In this document: positions 853 through 12,114 of the stretch, piece by piece | Layout of the letters: every line of letters starts with the position of its first letter | How positions within the stretch are numbered: the first letter of the stretch is position 1 | Assembly (NCBI GenBank): GCA_028284265.1 | Contig: JANQRZ010000019.1 | Coordinates: 310,001 to 374,000, forward strand | DNA from: Rhodothermales bacterium | GTDB taxonomy: Bacteria; Bacteroidota; Rhodothermia; Rhodothermales; JANQRZ01 | Length of the DNA stretch: 64,000 nt | Reading direction: 5' to 3' | Notes under the pieces: generated by a model | Seen by the model: only the letters and a program-made list of their open reading frames with translations | Databases searched by the model: none | What the model was told of the DNA's origin: nothing | Made by a program: the position numbers and the translations under genes

Positions 853-2709
853 CTACCCTTCGTCCATCGAGAGTACGGCGAGGAAGGCCTCCTGTGGCAC
901 CTCGACCGAGCCGACCTGCTTCATCCGCTTCTTGCCCTCTTTCTGCTTCTCGAGGAGCTTCCGCTTCCGGCTGATGTCGCCGCCGTAGCACTTCGCGGTC
1001 ACGTCCTTGCGGAGCGCCTTAACAGTCTCGCGGGCGATGACCTTGTTGCCGATGGCCGCCTGGATCGCCACGTCGTAGAGCTGCTTCGGGATCAGTTCGC
1101 GGAGCTTGGCGGTCAGCTTGCGACCCATCTCGTAGGCCTTGTCGCGGTGGACAATCGTCGAGAGCGCATCGACCGGATCGCCGTTGAGGAGCACGTCGAG
1201 CTTGACGAGGTTCGAGGTGCGTTCGTCGATCACCTCATAGTCGAGGCTCGCATAGCCCCGGCTGACAGACTTGAGCTTGTCGTAGAAGTCGAACACGACC
1301 TCGCCGAGCGGCAGTTCGTACTGGAGATCGACGCGCTCGGTATCGAGGTAGTTGGTGTTGATGTACGAGCCGCGTCGGTCTTGGCAAAGCGTCATCAGCG
1401 AGCCGATGTAGTCGGTCGGGGTGATGATCTGCGCTTTGATGTACGGCTCGCGGATCTCGGCAATCGAGCCGATGGGCGGTAGCTCGCTCGGGCTGGACAC
1501 CTCGGTCGTCGAGCCGTCGGTCATCTCGACGGTGTACCGAACGTTGGGGAGTGTCGTGATGATGTCGAGGTCGAACTCGCGGTCGAGGCGCTCCTGAACG
1601 ATCTCCATGTGGAGCATCCCGAGGAAACCAACGCGGAACCCGAAGCCGAGCGCCGCCGAGGTCTCCGGCTCGTAGGTCAGCGCTGCGTCGTTGAGTTGGA
1701 GCTTGTCGAGCGAAGCGCGGAGGTCCTCGAAGTCGGCGGAGTCGGTCGGATAGATGCCGGAGAAGACCATCGGCTTGACCTCGCGGAAGCCGGGTACCGG
1801 CGCAGCAGCGGGCCGCTTCGAGTTGGTGATCGTGTCGCCGACGCGGGCGTCGCGGACCTCTTTGACGCTGCCGATCACGTACCCCACGTCGCCCGCCTTG
1901 AGCGTCTTGACCTTCTGCATCCCGAGCTTGAGGACGCCGATCTCTTCGGCGAAGTACCGCTTGTCGGTCGCCATGAACAGGATCGGATCGCCCTGATTGA
2001 GCGTGCCGTCGACGATGCGGACGTAGGCGACCGCGCCACGGTACTGGTCGAAGACCGAGTCGAAGATCGCACCCTGAAGCGGGGCCTCGGGGTCGCCGTC
2101 GGGCGGCGGGATGCGATGGACGACGGCTTCCAGCACATCCTCGATCCCCATGCCTGTTTTCGCACTGGCGTGTAGCACATCCTCCGGGTCGCCGCCGATG
2201 AGGTCGGTGACGGTCTGGGCGATGATCTCGGGGCGCGCGCTCGGCAGGTCGATCTTGTTGAGCACCGGGATGATTTCGAGATCGACGTTGATTGCCTGAT
2301 AGAGGTTCGCAATCGTCTGGGCCTCGATACCCTGTGCGGCATCCACGACGAGGATCGCGCCTTCACAGGCGTTCAACGCCCGGCTGACCTCGTAGGAGAA
2401 GTCGACGTGCCCCGGCGTGTCAATCAGATTGAGGATGTACTCCTGCCCGTCGCGGGCCTTGTAGTTCATTCGAATCGCGTGGCTCTTGATCGTGATGCCA
2501 CGCTCGCGTTCGAGGTCCATCGAGTCGAGAACCTGATCCTGCATCTCACGCTTGGACAGCGTACCGGTCGCCTCCAGCATCCGGTCGGCGAGCGTGCTCT
2601 TGCCGTGGTCGATGTGGGCGATGATGCAGAAATTGCGGATGTGCTTCTGATCCACGAAGGCGACAGTCGAGTGCGTGGGGACGAGCGGGTCCAACCCGGT
2701 AGAGGGCAC
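853..2709 (-). CDS. lepA: Elongation factor 4 (LepA), ribosomal back-translocating GTPase
   Basis: Cytosolic translational GTPase that binds stalled ribosomes. Length (618 aa from the first ATG) fits the family (about 600). G1 motif AHIDHGKST lies at residues 31-39, DTPGH at 97-101 and NKID at 151-154; EF-G-like domains II and III follow, and the basic LepA C-terminal domain holds [18 protein letters not shown]. Most LepA proteins begin with M-D-Q-x-H-I-R-N, so a GTG at 2655 (V-D-Q-K-H-I-R-N) may be the real start, which would give 600 aa. The ATG at 2709 is kept because a promoter-like TATATTCA lies at 2729-2736. It is divergent from the ATP-grasp gene. Confidence 0.95.
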
Positions 2710-2823: not shown

Positions 2824-3675
2824 ATGCGACACTGCGCCTTCCTCACGATGGACGAACCGCACGGGTTCGCCACCTACGATCATCTCCTCCACGAACCCCT
2901 CGTCCGGCGAGGCTGGCACGTCGAGAACGTGTCATGGCGCGCCGACGCCGACTGGGGCGACTTCGAGGTCGTCGTCGTCCGCTCACCGTGGGACTACCAC
3001 GCCGAGCCGGAGGCCTTCTTTGGTGTGCTGGAGACCATCGACCGCTCGGCAGCACGGTTGGAGAACCCGCTCGCGCTGATGCGCTGGAACGTCCACAAGA
3101 CCTACCTCCGCGACCTCGAAGCGCGCGGCTTCCCCATCGTCCCGACCCGCTGGCTCGATGGGCTGACCGAGAACGATCTTCCTGCGCTGTACGAGGCGTT
3201 CGATACGGACGAACTGGTCGTCAAGCCCGTCATCGGAGCGAATGCCGACGACACGTTTCGCCTTCCACTTGGCGTCCCGCTGAATGAAGCTCTTACCGTA
3301 TTTGAGAACAGGGCGTGCATGGTGCAGCCGTTCGTCCCGGCGGTCGTGCGCGAGGGCGAGTTCTCGCTGTTCTACTTCGGCGAGGCGTATAGCCACGCGA
3401 TCCTCAAGACCCCCGCCCCGCACGACTTCCGCGTGCAAGAGGAGCGCGGTAGCACCATCCGCGCTGCCGAACCCGAGCCTGCACTTCGCGCCGTCTCCGA
3501 CGCCGTTCAGGCTAGCCTATCTCCACGCCCGCTCTACGCCCGGATCGATTTCGTGCGACTCCCAACTGGCTTCGCGCTGATGGAGGTCGAACTCATCGAG
3601 CCGTCGCTCTACTTCCCCTACGACGACGCCTCACCCGAACGCTTCGCCGACGCGTTCGCCCAGCGGATCGGCTAG
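2824..3675 (+). CDS. ATP-grasp superfamily protein, substrate unknown
   Basis: 283 aa, no signal peptide. The N-terminal half has a pre-ATP-grasp Rossmann-like shape (VVVVRSPWDYH near residue 60). The central part has ELVVKPVIGANADDTF, the lysine-bearing nucleotide segment. The C-terminal part has LYARIDFVRL and FALMEVELIEPSLYF, where the acidic residues would bind the two Mg2+ ions. This is the cycloserine-ligase-like/RimK-like group that ligates an amine to a carboxylate through an acyl phosphate. Its substrate cannot be read from sequence. It stands alone between the divergent lepA and convergent lspA; its stop codon overlaps the lspA stop in a CTAG (3672-3675). Confidence 0.8.
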   Translation: MRHCAFLTMDEPHGFATYDHLLHEPLVRRGWHVENVSWRADADWGDFEVVVVRSPWDYHAEPEAFFGVLETIDRSAARLENPLALMRWNVHKTYLRDLEARGFPIVPTRWLDGLTENDLPALYEAFDTDELVVKPVIGANADDTFRLPLGVPLNEALTVFENRACMVQPFVPAVVREGEFSLFYFGEAYSHAILKTPAPHDFRVQEERGSTIRAAEPEPALRAVSDAVQASLSPRPLYARIDFVRLPTGFALMEVELIEPSLYFPYDDASPERFADAFAQRIG

Positions 3676-4319
3676 GATTCTGGCAGCCGCGCCTCGGAGA
3701 ACGTCTCGCCCTCGGGCATTGCGGGTGTCTCAGCGGCAGAGACTAGGTCGGCTTGCGATGCGGCTTTTTCCTGTTCGGCTATCCGCACCATGCCCTCGTG
3801 GAAGCGACGCTGGAATACGATGATCGACGTCACACCGACCACAATCGCCATATCGGCGACGTTCCAGATCGGGAACAGGGCGAGGAAGTTGCCGCCGAAG
3901 AACGGAATCCACTCAGGCAGATAGCCGCGCCAGAGATCGACGTGGATGAAGTCCACGACCTCGCCGTGGAACCACCCGCCGCCGCTGATGCCAAGGACGC
4001 CGTAGAACACCCGGTCGATGATGTTGCCGAGCGCCCCGCCGATGATGAGCGCGAGCGAGAAGCGATACCCCCACGGCCCCTTCCGCACTACCCAGAGGTA
4101 GACCACGATCAGGACGGTAGCGAGAATCGAGAAGAGCGTCAGGAACAGCTTCGAGCCTAGCTCTAGCCCGAACGCCATGCCGGGGTTCGTCGTGTACGTC
4201 AGCCGGAGCAGTGTGCCGACAAGCGGAATGGACTCGCCTGTGACCATCTGCGTGTGCACCCACAGCTTCGTGAGTTGGTCGATGACGACGAGGACAAGCG
4301 AGACCCAGAGGAGGCGCAT
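3672..4319 (-). CDS. lspA: Lipoprotein signal peptidase (signal peptidase II)
   Basis: Inner-membrane aspartyl protease that cleaves prolipoproteins after lipidation. Four hydrophobic segments are visible. The catalytic aspartates are D102 in GNIIDR and D156 in WNVADMAI; the conserved TNPGMAFG motif is at residues 44-51. At 215 aa it is longer than the usual 160-170 because of an extra loop (residues 107-140) and a cytoplasmic tail of about 45 residues rich in Ala and Glu. It is last in the minus-strand run that also holds dksA-like and ileS, the same relative position lspA has in Firmicutes. The lipoproteins at 39065 and 60343 would be substrates. Confidence 0.95.
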   Translation of the reverse strand: MRLLWVSLVLVVIDQLTKLWVHTQMVTGESIPLVGTLLRLTYTTNPGMAFGLELGSKLFLTLFSILATVLIVVYLWVVRKGPWGYRFSLALIIGGALGNIIDRVFYGVLGISGGGWFHGEVVDFIHVDLWRGYLPEWIPFFGGNFLALFPIWNVADMAIVVGVTSIIVFQRRFHEGMVRIAEQEKAASQADLVSAAETPAMPEGETFSEARLPES

Positions 4320-4406: not shown

Positions 4407-4826
4407 TTATTTCTGCTTCCGCTTCGCCTCGATGGAAATCTCGGTGTGCGGCACGGCACGGAGGCGCTCCTTGGCAATCGGCTTGCCTGTGACCTTGCAG
4501 ACGCCGTAGGTCTTGTTCTCGATTCGTTCGAGGGCGCGCTCTAGGTAGCCGACGTATTTCTGCTGGCGGGCAATCATGAGGTAGAGCTTCTCGCGCTCCA
4601 TCGCGTCGGTCCCGGCGTCGGCCATGTGGAACGAATAGGCCGAGTCGCTTTCGTGCTCACGCGAGTCCTCGATCTGTGCCCGCATGGTCTCGATGTCCTC
4701 GAGGGCGCTCTCGCGCTTCTGGACGATGAGGTCGTTGAACTCGGCTAGTTCACTGTCAGAAAACGGGGTCCGGCGCTGCGTCGTCCCGTTGGTCTTGGTT
4801 CCGTTGGCGTCTACGTTGGTACTCAT
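4407..4826 (-). CDS. TraR/DksA-family RNA polymerase-binding protein lacking the zinc cysteines
   Basis: 139 aa. An N-terminal helical pair (residues about 20-95, SELAEFNDLIVQKRE... through ALERIENKTYGVC) forms the coiled-coil tip that enters the RNA polymerase secondary channel. The C-terminal globular part reads YGVCKVTGKPIAKERLRAVPH: the fold signature of the DksA zinc finger is kept, but only one of the four cysteines remains. Cys-poor DksA forms are known in Bacteroidota and in Pseudomonas DksA2. It sits between ileS and lspA, where Bacillus has ylyA of the same family. Likely a (p)ppGpp-linked transcription modulator; whether it responds to ppGpp is not visible. Confidence 0.85.
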   Translation of the reverse strand: MSTNVDANGTKTNGTTQRRTPFSDSELAEFNDLIVQKRESALEDIETMRAQIEDSREHESDSAYSFHMADAGTDAMEREKLYLMIARQQKYVGYLERALERIENKTYGVCKVTGKPIAKERLRAVPHTEISIEAKRKQK

Positions 4827-4880: not shown

Positions 4881-7800
4881 TCAGACCTCGGCGGCGGCGG
4901 TCTCTTCCGCCCCCACCCGGCGAATGCCAATTTCGATTGGCTCGCCGCCGATCTCGAATGTTTCAACGGCCTCTCCGGTCGGAACCTCGGAAGCCTCTAG
5001 GCTCGCGGCAAGCACTTCGTTCCGAATCGACTCGGCGTGGGTACGAACGGCATGTGCTACCGTGTCTGCGGCGCGGAAGGTAACGAAAATCCGGTCGGCC
5101 ACCGCGAACGCGGCAGTCTTCCGCAAATTCTGGACCCGATTGACAAACTCGCGCACGAGGCCCTCGTTTCGTAGATCGTCCGTGATCGCGGTGTCTAGTG
5201 CCACCGTCACACTGCCCTCTTGCCCGACAAGGTGTCCCTCGATGCCTTCGCTCGTCACCTCGATGTCGCCTGCCTCGAACGTAACGACCTCGCCATCGAG
5301 GTCGAGGGTGAGCGAGCCTTCCTGCTCGTACCGACTGATAGCTTGATCGTCGAGGGTGCGGATCGCGGCGTTTGCTGCCTTCATCTTCGGCCCGAGGCGC
5401 TTCCCGAGCGTCTTGAAGTTCGGCTTGGCCAACTTGGAGACCAGGCTGCTGTCCGACCCGATGGCGTCGAGCCGCTTGACGTTGACTTCGTCCAGCACGA
5501 TGCCTTCGACCGATCTGAGCACAGCCTCGTCTACCCCTGCCGTGCCGGTGACGACCGCGATGGACCCGAGCGGCTGACGGACGTTGATCTCCGCCTCGTT
5601 GCGGAGCGCGAGGGTGATGGAAGCAACCGTCCGAGCGAGCGCCATCCGGTCTTCGAGCGCCGCATCCACAGCAGCCTCGTTCACCGATGGGAAGTCAGCG
5701 AGATGGACCGAGGACGTGCCGTCACCGTGCAGCGCGGACCACAGCCACTCGGCGTAGAACGGCGCGAGCGGAGCCATGAGTTTGGCGAGCGTCGTCAGGC
5801 ACTCGTAGACGGTCTCGTAAGCCGCCCGCTTGTCGGCATCGCTCTCGCTTTTCCAGAAGCGGCGACGGCTGCGGCGGAGATACCAGTTCGAGAGGTCGTC
5901 CACGAACGTCTCCATCGCGCGCGCAGCCTGTGTCGGGTGGTAGGCGTCGAACGCCGCGTCCACATCGCCGACGGTCGTATTCAAGCGCGAGAGAATCCAG
6001 CGGTCGAGTTCGGTGCGCTCGGCGAGCGGGGTCGGGGTACCGTCGTAGGCGAACCCGTCGAGGTTGGCGTAGGTGGCGAAGAAGCTGTACGTGTTGGTGA
6101 CGGTCGAGAAGAACTTGCGCTTGGTCTCCTCGACGGCGCGGTCGGAGTAGCGGAGGCTCTCCCACGGCGCGCTCGCACTCATCAGCGTCCACCGCACGGG
6201 GTCTGCTCCGTGACGGGCAATCGTCTCGAAAGGATCGACCGTGTTGCCCTTCGACTTGGACATCTTCTCGCCCTGCTCATCGAGCACGAGGCCGTTGACG
6301 ACAACGTTCTTGTAGGCGACCGAGTCTTCGACGAGCGCCGCAATGGCGTGGAGCGTGTAGAACCAGCCCCGCGTCTGATCGACGCCCTCGGCGATGAAGT
6401 CGGCGGGGAAGTTGCGTTCGAACGTCTCGCGGTTCTCGAAGGGATAGTGCCACTGCGCGAACGGCATCGCCCCGGAGTCGAACCACACGTCGATCAGGTC
6501 CGGCTCGCGGCGATAGATCCCACCGCCCTCCGTAGGCCAGGTGATCTCGTCCACGAACGGGCGGTGCAAATCCGGCACGTCGTCCAGCCCGGCCTTCTCT
6601 TTCAACTCGGCGAGCGAGCCGATGACGACGTAGTCCTCGGGGTCGCGGTCGTTGACCCAGACCGGGAGCGGGGTGCCCCAGTAGCGCATCCGCGAGAGCG
6701 CCCAGTCCACGTTGCCTTCGAGCCACTGCCCGAAGCGCCCCGTGCCGATGCCATCCGGCTGCCAGTTGATCGTGTCGTTCAGTTCGATGAGCCGGTCCTT
6801 GATGGCCGTCGTGCGGATGAACCAGCTCTCGACGGGGTACTGCATGAGCGGCGTACCCTTGCGCCAGTCGTGCGGGTAGTTGTGGAGGTATGAGTCCTCA
6901 CGGTAGAGCAAACCCCGACTGATGAGGTCGCGGATGATCGGTCGGTCGGCATCTTTGAACCATAGGCCGCCAACAACGGGAGCATCATCCCAAAACCTTC
7001 CGTCCGGTCTAATTGGATTAAGCAGTGGTAGCTCCTCTCGTTGGCCGGTAGCGTAATCATCTGCCCCAAATGCGGGAGCTGTATGGACTATACCAGTACC
7101 ATCCTGAGTAGTGACGTAATCCGCCGCCACCACCTTGAAGGCATTCTGTCCGAAGTAGCGACGTATCGCTTCCTCTTTTGTTAGTTCTTCCCCAACGGTG
7201 TCGGGCAGATAGCGCTCTTGGTATCTCTTTACACCGAAAGCATTGATCTCCAAGCTGGAACCAATCCTCTCAGTAGTTCTCCCACCTAGTCCTTGAGAGA
7301 AAGTCGACAGATCTGTGTCGAATAACTGACTGTAGGCTTTACCGACCAGATCGCGGCCCTTCATTTCTTCAACAATCTCGTACTCCTCTTTGAGGACCGA
7401 AAGCAGCGACTTGGCGAGGTAGATGTACTCGGTCTCGCCCTCCTCGTTTTCTTTGCGAACCTTGACGTAATCGATCCCTTCGCCGACGGCAAGCGCGGTG
7501 TTCGAGACGAGGGTCCACGGCGTCGTGGTCCATGCGAGGAAGAAAGTATCCGGCTCGCCCTCAACCGGGAAACGGACGTAGACCGATGGATCCTGCACTT
7601 CTTTGTAGCCGAGCGAGACCTCGTGGCTGGAAAGGACCGTGCCGCTGCCGGGGCTGTACCACTGAATCTTGTGGCCCCGGTAGAGGAACGGCTCGCCGTC
7701 GGCAGTGCGCCGCTCAGAGATCGTCTTGAGGAGCGACCACACCGACTCGATGTAGTCGTTCTCAAAGGTGATGTAGGGGTCGGAGAGATCGACCCAGTAA

Positions 7801-8228
7801 CCCATGCGCCGGGTGAGGTCGTCCCACAGGTCTTTGTACTTCAGCACCGACTCGCGGCAGGCGGCGTTGTAATCCTCGATAGAGATTTTTCCGTCCGGCC
7901 CGATCTCGTGTCGCCCCTTCAAGCCCAATTCCTTCTCGACCTCGATCTCGACGGGGAGACCGTGCGTGTCCCAGCCGCCCTTGCGGTCCACGCGGAAGCC
8001 CTTCATCGTCCGGTAGCGGCAGAAGAGGTCTTTGATGGTCCGCGCCATGACGTGGTGGATGCCCGGCTTGCCGTTGGCCGTCGGCGGGCCTTCGTAGAAG
8101 ACGAAGTTCGGCGCGCCGTCGCGGAGGGCGAGGCTCTGCTCGAACACATCGTGCTCGTCCCACCACCGGAGGGTCTGCTCCTCGGTGGCGGCGTGGTCGA
8201 ATCCTTTGGCGTCGGGGTAGCGCGGCAT
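4881..8228 (-). CDS. ileS: Isoleucyl-tRNA synthetase, type 2 with swapped GIHH signature
   Basis: Class I synthetase, 1115 aa from the ATG at 8228 (MPRYPDAKGF). The start is preferred over 8252 because the -7-like TATCTTCG at 8252-8259 would overlap the longer form. The usual HIGH motif reads G56-I-H-H59 (in GKPGIHHVMAR), the GXHH variant. KMSKS is intact at residues 655-659. The CP1 editing domain has GTGIVHTAPAFGADDY, including the conserved aspartate. The anticodon-binding and C-terminal domains are complete. Residues of about 283-423 come from a stretch of much lower G+C than the rest (see findings). It follows pnp and the unknown gene and precedes the DksA-like gene on the same strand. 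Confidence 0.97.
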   Translation of the reverse strand: MPRYPDAKGFDHAATEEQTLRWWDEHDVFEQSLALRDGAPNFVFYEGPPTANGKPGIHHVMARTIKDLFCRYRTMKGFRVDRKGGWDTHGLPVEIEVEKELGLKGRHEIGPDGKISIEDYNAACRESVLKYKDLWDDLTRRMGYWVDLSDPYITFENDYIESVWSLLKTISERRTADGEPFLYRGHKIQWYSPGSGTVLSSHEVSLGYKEVQDPSVYVRFPVEGEPDTFFLAWTTTPWTLVSNTALAVGEGIDYVKVRKENEEGETEYIYLAKSLLSVLKEEYEIVEEMKGRDLVGKAYSQLFDTDLSTFSQGLGGRTTERIGSSLEINAFGVKRYQERYLPDTVGEELTKEEAIRRYFGQNAFKVVAADYVTTQDGTGIVHTAPAFGADDYATGQREELPLLNPIRPDGRFWDDAPVVGGLWFKDADRPIIRDLISRGLLYREDSYLHNYPHDWRKGTPLMQYPVESWFIRTTAIKDRLIELNDTINWQPDGIGTGRFGQWLEGNVDWALSRMRYWGTPLPVWVNDRDPEDYVVIGSLAELKEKAGLDDVPDLHRPFVDEITWPTEGGGIYRREPDLIDVWFDSGAMPFAQWHYPFENRETFERNFPADFIAEGVDQTRGWFYTLHAIAALVEDSVAYKNVVVNGLVLDEQGEKMSKSKGNTVDPFETIARHGADPVRWTLMSASAPWESLRYSDRAVEETKRKFFSTVTNTYSFFATYANLDGFAYDGTPTPLAERTELDRWILSRLNTTVGDVDAAFDAYHPTQAARAMETFVDDLSNWYLRRSRRRFWKSESDADKRAAYETVYECLTTLAKLMAPLAPFYAEWLWSALHGDGTSSVHLADFPSVNEAAVDAALEDRMALARTVASITLALRNEAEINVRQPLGSIAVVTGTAGVDEAVLRSVEGIVLDEVNVKRLDAIGSDSSLVSKLAKPNFKTLGKRLGPKMKAANAAIRTLDDQAISRYEQEGSLTLDLDGEVVTFEAGDIEVTSEGIEGHLVGQEGSVTVALDTAITDDLRNEGLVREFVNRVQNLRKTAAFAVADRIFVTFRAADTVAHAVRTHAESIRNEVLAASLEASEVPTGEAVETFEIGGEPIEIGIRRVGAEETAAAEV

Positions 8229-8251
8229 GGGCAGGCAGGCAAAAGAGACCA

Positions 8252-8259
8252 CGAAGATA
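8252..8259 (-). promoter_or_regulatory. Candidate -7 element (TATCTTCG) for ileS
   Basis: TATCTTCG on the minus strand, 24 bases before the chosen ileS ATG. The same TATCTTC heptamer stands before sbtA, the gene at 31377, meaB and the POT transporter. Confidence 0.4.
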
Positions 8260-9025: not shown

Positions 9026-9856
9026 TCACACGATGCCCGATACGAGCGCCCGCATGAGCGCGGTCAGCTTTGGCTCGGCTTCGGCGGCGGCGGCGAGCAC
9101 GTCGGCGATGGAGACGGGTTCGAGCGCATCGGGAAAGCACTCGTCGGTGATGACGGAGACGGCGAGGCACCGCAGCCCCATGTGCCGAGCCACAATGACC
9201 TCGGGGACCGTGCTCATCCCAACCGCATCGGCTCCGATCCCCCGGAGGAAGCGGTACTCGGCGCGGGTCTCTAGATTCGGTCCTTCGACGGCAACGTAGA
9301 CGCCTTGTTGGAGCTTGATCGCCTGTTCCAGCGCAGCCTCTTCGGCGAGGCGACGCAGCCCCTCGTCATAGGGCATACTCATGTCGGGGAAGCGCGGCCC
9401 CCAGTCGTCGTCGTTCGGCCCGATGAGTGGGTTCGCGCCTTGCAGGTTGATGTGGTCCGTGACGAGCATGAGGTCGCCTCGCCGGAAGTTCGTGTTCATC
9501 CCGCCCGCCGCGTTCGAGATAAGGAGCGTCTCGACACCGAGCGCCGCAAGGACGCGAACCGGAAAGGTGATCTCCTTCGGCCCGTAGCCTTCGTAGAGAT
9601 GAAAGCGCCCCTGCATCGCCCACACCGGCACCCCGTCAAGCCGACCGGCGATCAAGCGCCCGTGGTGACTCTCAACCGTCGAGAGCGGAAAATGCGGAAT
9701 GGCATCGTAAGCGATGCTGGCCTCCGCCTCAATCTCATCGGCGAGCGCGCCGAGGCCGGTGCCGAGGATCAGCCCGATGTTCGCATCGAGCGTAGTGGTT
9801 TCACGGATCGCAGCAGCAGCTTCTTCGACGCGGCGACGGTAGAGGGCGGGGTCCAT
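9026..9856 (-). CDS. Purine nucleoside phosphorylase (trimeric PNP family)
   Basis: Phosphorolysis of purine (deoxy)nucleosides to base plus (deoxy)ribose-1-phosphate in salvage. 276 aa from the ATG at 9856 (MDPALYRRR), typical for the family. Visible motifs: LILGTGLG (phosphate loop), ESHHGR, QGRFHLYEGY, SNAAGGMN, VEGPNLETRAEYR (base and ribose contacts) and DAVGMSTVPEVIVARH. The base-selecting Asn of mammalian PNP (SLITNKV) is replaced by Asp (SVITDEC), a change seen in adenosine-accepting variants, so base range could be broader than guanosine/inosine. The 79-base spacer to divIVA carries an inverted repeat shared with 37.7 kb. Confidence 0.93.
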   Translation of the reverse strand: MDPALYRRRVEEAAAAIRETTTLDANIGLILGTGLGALADEIEAEASIAYDAIPHFPLSTVESHHGRLIAGRLDGVPVWAMQGRFHLYEGYGPKEITFPVRVLAALGVETLLISNAAGGMNTNFRRGDLMLVTDHINLQGANPLIGPNDDDWGPRFPDMSMPYDEGLRRLAEEAALEQAIKLQQGVYVAVEGPNLETRAEYRFLRGIGADAVGMSTVPEVIVARHMGLRCLAVSVITDECFPDALEPVSIADVLAAAAEAEPKLTALMRALVSGIV

Positions 9857-9935
9857 TGGCTGATTGGGGGACTCGCTGATTGGGAGATTAGGAGACACAA
9901 TCACCCAATCGCTCACTCAGTCAATCGGTGAATAA
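9857..9935 (-). repeat. Intergenic hairpin spacer, copy 1 (between divIVA and pnp)
   Basis: The spacer contains repeated GATTG/CAATC words able to pair. On the minus strand the 13-mer GATTGGGTGATTG (9898-9910), then CCCAATCAG and CAGCGAGTC, are also found in the same order in the spacer before sbcD (37701-37786). Both spacers run up to the ATG of the next gene. Confidence 0.5.
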
Positions 9936-11176: not shown

Positions 11177-11911
11177 TCACCCACGCGACCCGAAAAGGGC
11201 CGACCCGACGCGCACGTCCGTCGCCCCTTCCTCGATGGCAATCTCGAAGTCGCCGCTCATGCCCATCGAGAGGCGGTCGAGGCTGACGTTGACGCTGCCG
11301 TCGTAGGTCTCGGCGAGGCGGCGGAGGTGCTGGAACTGCGGGCGCACGACGGTCTCTAGCTCGTCGGGGTTCACCGCCGGAGCGGCGAGCGCCATCAGGC
11401 CAACGACGCGAAGATGTTGGTAGGCGGCGAGGCTATCAAGGAAGGTATGGAGTGCGTCGGGCGCAAGGCCGGACTTCGAGTCCTCGCCGGAGATGTTGAC
11501 TTGGACGAAGCACGGGAGGATGCGCTCCGCCCGAGCCGCCCGCGTGTCGATGTCCTTTGCCAGCTTCTCACTGTCGAGTGCGTGGAAAACGTCGGCGTGC
11601 TCTAGCGTCTTGTTGATCTTGTTCTTTTGCAGCGGGCCGACGAGGTGCCAGTGGATCGCACCACCGCCCACCTCGCCGGGAAGCGCACCGGCTTTCTCCT
11701 CTAGCTCCTGCACCCGATTCTCTCCGAAGTCGGTCAGCCCGGCCTCAACCCCAGCACGGACGACCTCGATGGGAAACGTCTTGCTCACGGCAATGAGCCG
11801 GACGCCGTCGGGGTCTCGCCCGACCCGTTCACACGCCGCATGGATGCGAGCGTACACGGCCTCAGCGCGGGCGCGAATGTCGGCAGCGAGCAATGACAGG
11901 TCGGCGCTCAT
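11177..11911 (-). CDS. YggS/YlmE family pyridoxal-phosphate homeostasis protein
   Basis: 244 aa from the ATG at 11911 (MSADLSLLAADIR). An alanine-racemase-like TIM barrel without a second domain. LIAVSKTFP holds the PLP Schiff-base lysine; DFGENRVQEL, HWHLVGPLQKNK and LDRLSMGMSGDFEIAI are the family signature blocks, with the last binding phosphate. Members buffer PLP and affect vitamin B6 and amino-acid balance rather than catalyse a known reaction. First gene of the minus-strand run ending in lspA. The ATG is chosen because the upstream extension is unlike the family N-terminus. Confidence 0.95.
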   Translation of the reverse strand: MSADLSLLAADIRARAEAVYARIHAACERVGRDPDGVRLIAVSKTFPIEVVRAGVEAGLTDFGENRVQELEEKAGALPGEVGGGAIHWHLVGPLQKNKINKTLEHADVFHALDSEKLAKDIDTRAARAERILPCFVQVNISGEDSKSGLAPDALHTFLDSLAAYQHLRVVGLMALAAPAVNPDELETVVRPQFQHLRRLAETYDGSVNVSLDRLSMGMSGDFEIAIEEGATDVRVGSALFGSRG

Positions 11912-12114
11912 TCTCTCATTTGGGTGGGTGGAACCGGCAGAGTGCGCCCCGATGATACGAGGCAATAGTGCAACACTTTCGCCGATTACCCATGTAATCT
12001 GTCCCGTTTTCGGGCGAAACTCCGGTTCTATTGGTACGATGCCCCGTGTCGCTGTGAACGGGTAGACTTCTTGATGTTAGCACCCACATTCAACCCTACC
12101 ACCTGCTCCCAGTC

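Follow-up and report, generated by a model that had tools for sequence, protein, structure and literature searches.

The window, a stretch of 64,000 nucleotides from contig JANQRZ010000019.1 (positions 310,001 to 374,000) of a Rhodothermales bacterium, carries on its minus strand an ileS gene coding for a type 2 isoleucyl-tRNA synthetase (IleRS2), in which the first class I signature HXGH is found in the swapped form GIHH. The frame is open from 4881 to 8252, with an ATG start at 8228. The gene and the parts of its product are as follows.

4881..8228, minus strand: ileS, type 2 isoleucyl-tRNA synthetase, complete, 1115 amino acids (TIGR00392, 931.6 bits; the sole match in the genome above the cut-off)
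8052..8063, minus strand: GIHH, residues 56-59, the first class I signature in swapped form (G/AXHH for HXGH; direct read; ungapped alignment)
6171..8174, minus strand: Pfam tRNA-synt_1, residues 19-686, the catalytic region of class I including the CP1 insertion for editing (379 bits)
6252..6266, minus strand: KMSKS, the second class I signature, residues 655-659 (read from the sequence; conserved in relatives)
5568..6005, minus strand: anticodon-binding domain, Pfam Anticodon_1, residues 742-887 (115 bits)
4917..5504, minus strand: C-terminal region, Pfam DUF5915, residues 909-1104 (199 bits; aligns with the C-terminal part of Priestia megaterium IleRS2)

The score against the IleRS equivalog TIGR00392 exceeds the curated cut-off of 621.4 bits, and the protein serves as housekeeping isoleucyl-tRNA synthetase in a bacterium of Rhodothermales type within the Bacteroidota.

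On the plus strand, positions 8052-8063 are gtggtggatgcc; the coding strand reads GGC ATC CAC CAC, that is Gly56-Ile-His-His. Counted from the ATG at 8228, this direct read agrees in coordinates and residue numbering with the first-pass annotation, which had reported the swapped signature together with an intact KMSKS; the latter is indeed present. G56, H58 and H59 do not vary across an alignment of 12 IleRS sequences, and K655, M656, S657 and K658 are equally unvarying in the same set. When aligned to the HVGH of P. megaterium IleRS2, G56 pairs with the first His, H58 with the Gly and H59 with the second His. The best match in the PDB, 8c8w, has GVHH at the aligned place, which is the motif of an engineered mutant (PMC10485003). 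The alignments to 8c8w and 8c8v run without a gap from about residue 16, across the motif and for some 50 residues further, within the gap-free context EGPPTANG-x-P-[G/H]-x-[H/G]-H.

These alignments bear on the possibility that H58 and H59 occupy the canonical His positions through a shift in register, the enzyme then being simply HIGH-like. The first-pass annotation had named such an alignment as an observation that would overturn its reading. Both motif forms do contain two His residues, and in the crystal of the GVHH mutant a nitrogen of the third-position His overlaps the position of the canonical first-His nitrogen (PMC10485003). The sequence alignment, however, has no gap, and the functional overlap arises from side-chain geometry, not from a shifted register. 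Because the alignments to both the HVGH and the GVHH enzyme are ungapped on the two sides of the motif, a register shift is excluded at the level of the sequence, and we regard this explanation as very improbable. Still less credible is that a canonical HIGH enzyme is read as GIHH owing to a sequencing error, a frameshift or a local misassembly. More than 1100 codons follow one another without a stop, the flanking residues are conserved without gaps, and all relatives fetched independently share the residues of the motif; GIHH is therefore neither chance nor error, and this explanation is already refuted.

Assignment of the enzyme to type 2 was examined by comparison with solved structures. 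The nearest are those of P. megaterium IleRS2 (8c8w, 8c8v, 8c8u and 8c9d; 908-921 bits), followed by Thermus thermophilus 1ile. While 8c8w scores 921 bits, the values are 349 for 8c9f and 360 for Staphylococcus aureus IleRS1 (1ffy), and no type 1 chain exceeds 360 bits. Since the best structure matches are all IleRS2 and type 1 lies far below, the window protein is of type 2. The IleRS2-type C-terminal region is present (the DUF5915 match), and a Pfam search (E 0.001) reported no type 1 zinc-finger domain in the protein. Structure scores and alignment together uphold the proposal of a type 2 enzyme bearing the GXHH form known from the literature.

The whole assembly (3.69 Mb, 97.9% complete) was searched with the family profile, and exactly one match above the ileS family cut-off was obtained. 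The earlier observation that the window holds no second ileS can thus be extended to the assembly, and the suggested check for another, type 1 copy in the remaining genome returned a single ileS, of type 2. Weaker synthetase matches were considered as a second ileS and rejected, as they fall below the cut-off and are read as paralogous synthetases. The best of them is a 909-residue frame with the motif region NVTGRLHMGHAL and 26-28% identity, ValRS-like by its motif. If the assembly is representative, the GIHH enzyme, being the sole IleRS found, must be functional.

Brkic et al. 2023 (PMC10485003) described the G/AXHH form, showed that it is catalytically competent and connected it with mupirocin hyper-resistance. 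Of the 163 bacterial type 2 IleRS in their tree, 86 have it, and no type 1 enzyme does. For the natural IleRS2 of D. radiodurans (ALHH) the inhibition constant (Ki) of mupirocin is 6.6 mM, and resistance drops about 800-fold when the enzyme is given HVGH, whereas introduction of GVHH into T. thermophilus and P. megaterium IleRS2 raises Ki by about 200- to 430-fold; the natural non-canonical enzyme pays little catalytic cost, and mupirocin modelled into the structure clashes with the third-position His (all PMC10485003). The statement in the first-pass annotation that GXHH is reported to keep activity and to give mupirocin resistance is accordingly true of the published IleRS2 enzymes (PMC10485003). 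The window protein shares with G/AXHH enzymes such as those of Streptomyces griseus and Deinococcus radiodurans the type 2 architecture, the swapped first and third residues (Gly at position 1, His at position 3) and the intact KMSKS. It differs in that X is Ile, and the inhibition data come from the published enzymes. P. megaterium IleRS2 (8c8u, 8c8v, 8c8w) is the closest solved relative by sequence, with a similar overall alignment; the GVHH mutant 8c8w has the motif form of the window protein, whereas the P. megaterium wild type has HVGH. At window positions 7143-7322 (residues ~303-362, in the editing region) the protein has about 50-60 residues more than P. megaterium IleRS2. The acquired staphylococcal ileS2 products MupA and MupB show type 2 homology (833.8 and 821.3 bits), scores that lie below the curated cut-off of 1900 for that family; the window ileS, in contrast to them, is a chromosomal housekeeping gene.

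By analogy with the structures and kinetics of other IleRS2, H58 would assume the transition-state role of the absent first His, and helix alpha-1 would be displaced enough for H58 to lie beside the adenine. The same residue would also clash with mupirocin, so that the enzyme would work normally and bind the drug very weakly. We are highly confident that the protein is a type 2 housekeeping IleRS with the published GXHH form, combining normal activity with very weak mupirocin binding as expected from other IleRS2. Insensitivity of the window enzyme to mupirocin is probable and well founded on these precedents, and resistance of the kind called 'extreme' is likely. Weighing against this is the spread of published Ki values for GXHH/AXHH enzymes, from 35 uM to 6.6 mM, the size of the effect depending on the enzyme background. 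As the GVHH mutant of T. thermophilus IleRS2 reached only ~35 uM (PMC10485003), the motif by itself does not tell how large the resistance is.

A survey of GXHH across Rhodothermia, suggested at the outset, was extended to the phylum. The motif is present throughout, and what had been noted as a feature of this organism turned out not to be peculiar to it and to be the norm of the phylum. A protein search in the same class gave a single IleRS match in 116 of 117 genomes. The DNA pattern NGxPGxHHV was matched in 270 of 296 phylum genomes; when the 26 genomes lacking the exact pattern were searched with the protein, 25 yielded an IleRS, all with GXHH in an altered context (e.g. NGKPGVHHL). The variants are mostly V60 to L, I or M, with GXHH kept. 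The combined searches place GXHH in 295 of the 296 genomes, and in the remaining one (88% complete) no IleRS match was obtained at the threshold used. Relatives from the whole-protein search carry GXHH at every locus covering the motif (107/107, these being the motif-covering loci among 80 named genome loci from that search and 29 from the class search); loci L039-L068, retrieved through the motif itself, were excluded from the frequency evidence. Among these relatives are members of Ignavibacteriota, Chlorobiota, Cloacimonadota, Zixiibacteriota, Anaerolineaceae and one of Gemmatimonadota. A search of the phylum genomes with the canonical pattern revealed no canonical HXGH IleRS. Matches to that pattern in 13 genomes (L069-L081), one of them on a different contig (C20) of the genome to which the window belongs, are other genes, because tblastn gave no alignment to IleRS covering the motif. 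Practically every relative in the phylum carries GXHH, and GIHH is therefore ordinary for the group: a variant known from the literature, shared by the whole clade and fixed in the sampled part of the phylum.

One genome, G203 (contigs C1 and C10; L044), is the only one sampled in the phylum where the GXHH pattern was matched twice, as NGLPGIHHV and as NGMPGIHHV; it may hold a second type 2 ileS, or one of the contigs may be a contaminant.

Fixation across the whole phylum also raises the question of how the motif arose. It could have become fixed in Bacteroidota through drift or catalytic tuning, with resistance as a by-product, and the little catalytic cost shown by the published natural non-canonical enzyme (PMC10485003) agrees with this. 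The published ancestral analysis, on the other hand, infers a later acquisition and presumes antibiotic selection (PMC10485003); nothing here is decisive, and we consider an origin apart from mupirocin a serious possibility, somewhat short of an even chance. Such an origin bears on the reason for the motif's existence and leaves its effect untouched; it agrees equally well with a GXHH housekeeping IleRS2 that binds mupirocin very weakly.

The genes on either side of ileS in the window are listed below.

4407-4826, minus strand: DksA/TraR-like gene, downstream of ileS
3672-4319, minus strand: lspA, downstream of ileS
853-2709, minus strand: lepA, downstream of ileS
9026-9868: purine-nucleoside phosphorylase gene, upstream of ileS
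11177-11914: YggS-family gene, upstream of ileS

Nine named loci carrying the enzyme are labelled Gammaproteobacteria (L087, L091, L094, L099, L105, L109, L111, L119 and L125). They come from Salinisphaera (including the isolate Salinisphaera japonica YTM-1), Oceanococcus, Abyssibacter and metagenome-assembled genomes, and in every one of the nine genomes a single IleRS lies above the cut-off, a GXHH type 2 enzyme. In a quick, midpoint-rooted tree, for which several of the gammaproteobacterial genomes were metagenome-assembled and the neighbourhoods were looked at only shallowly, the nine sequences fall inside a clade with Rhodothermales and the window sequence (support 100). Eight of them form one group (support 94), and L119 stands apart on a long branch. 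Within the gammaproteobacterial order, the GXHH pattern occurs in 24 of 61 genomes and the type 1 pattern (YANGxIHIGHA) in 31, and six match neither pattern exactly; no genome among the 61 has both. So sharp a division between the two types agrees with a Rhodothermales-type ileS2 having taken over from ileS1, and the presence of a GXHH IleRS2 where a type 1 enzyme is usual looks like horizontal replacement. Transfer of ileS2 among bacteria in general has been proposed already (PMC4861432); in the literature searched, no mention was found of Salinisphaera together with isoleucyl-tRNA synthetase. On this evidence it is likely that one group of Gammaproteobacteria received the GXHH enzyme, the fixed sole IleRS of the phylum, from the Rhodothermales lineage, and that it displaced a mupirocin-sensitive type 1 enzyme there.

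A published active-site variant is thus the rule in Bacteroidota and not a curiosity, and insensitivity to mupirocin at the level of the target is therefore likely to be intrinsic in this phylum. If the transfer holds, Salinisphaera and its kin would be a natural case of a sensitive synthetase replaced by one of the resistant type, and a ready-made antibiotic-resistant essential enzyme would spread through replacement of the whole gene.
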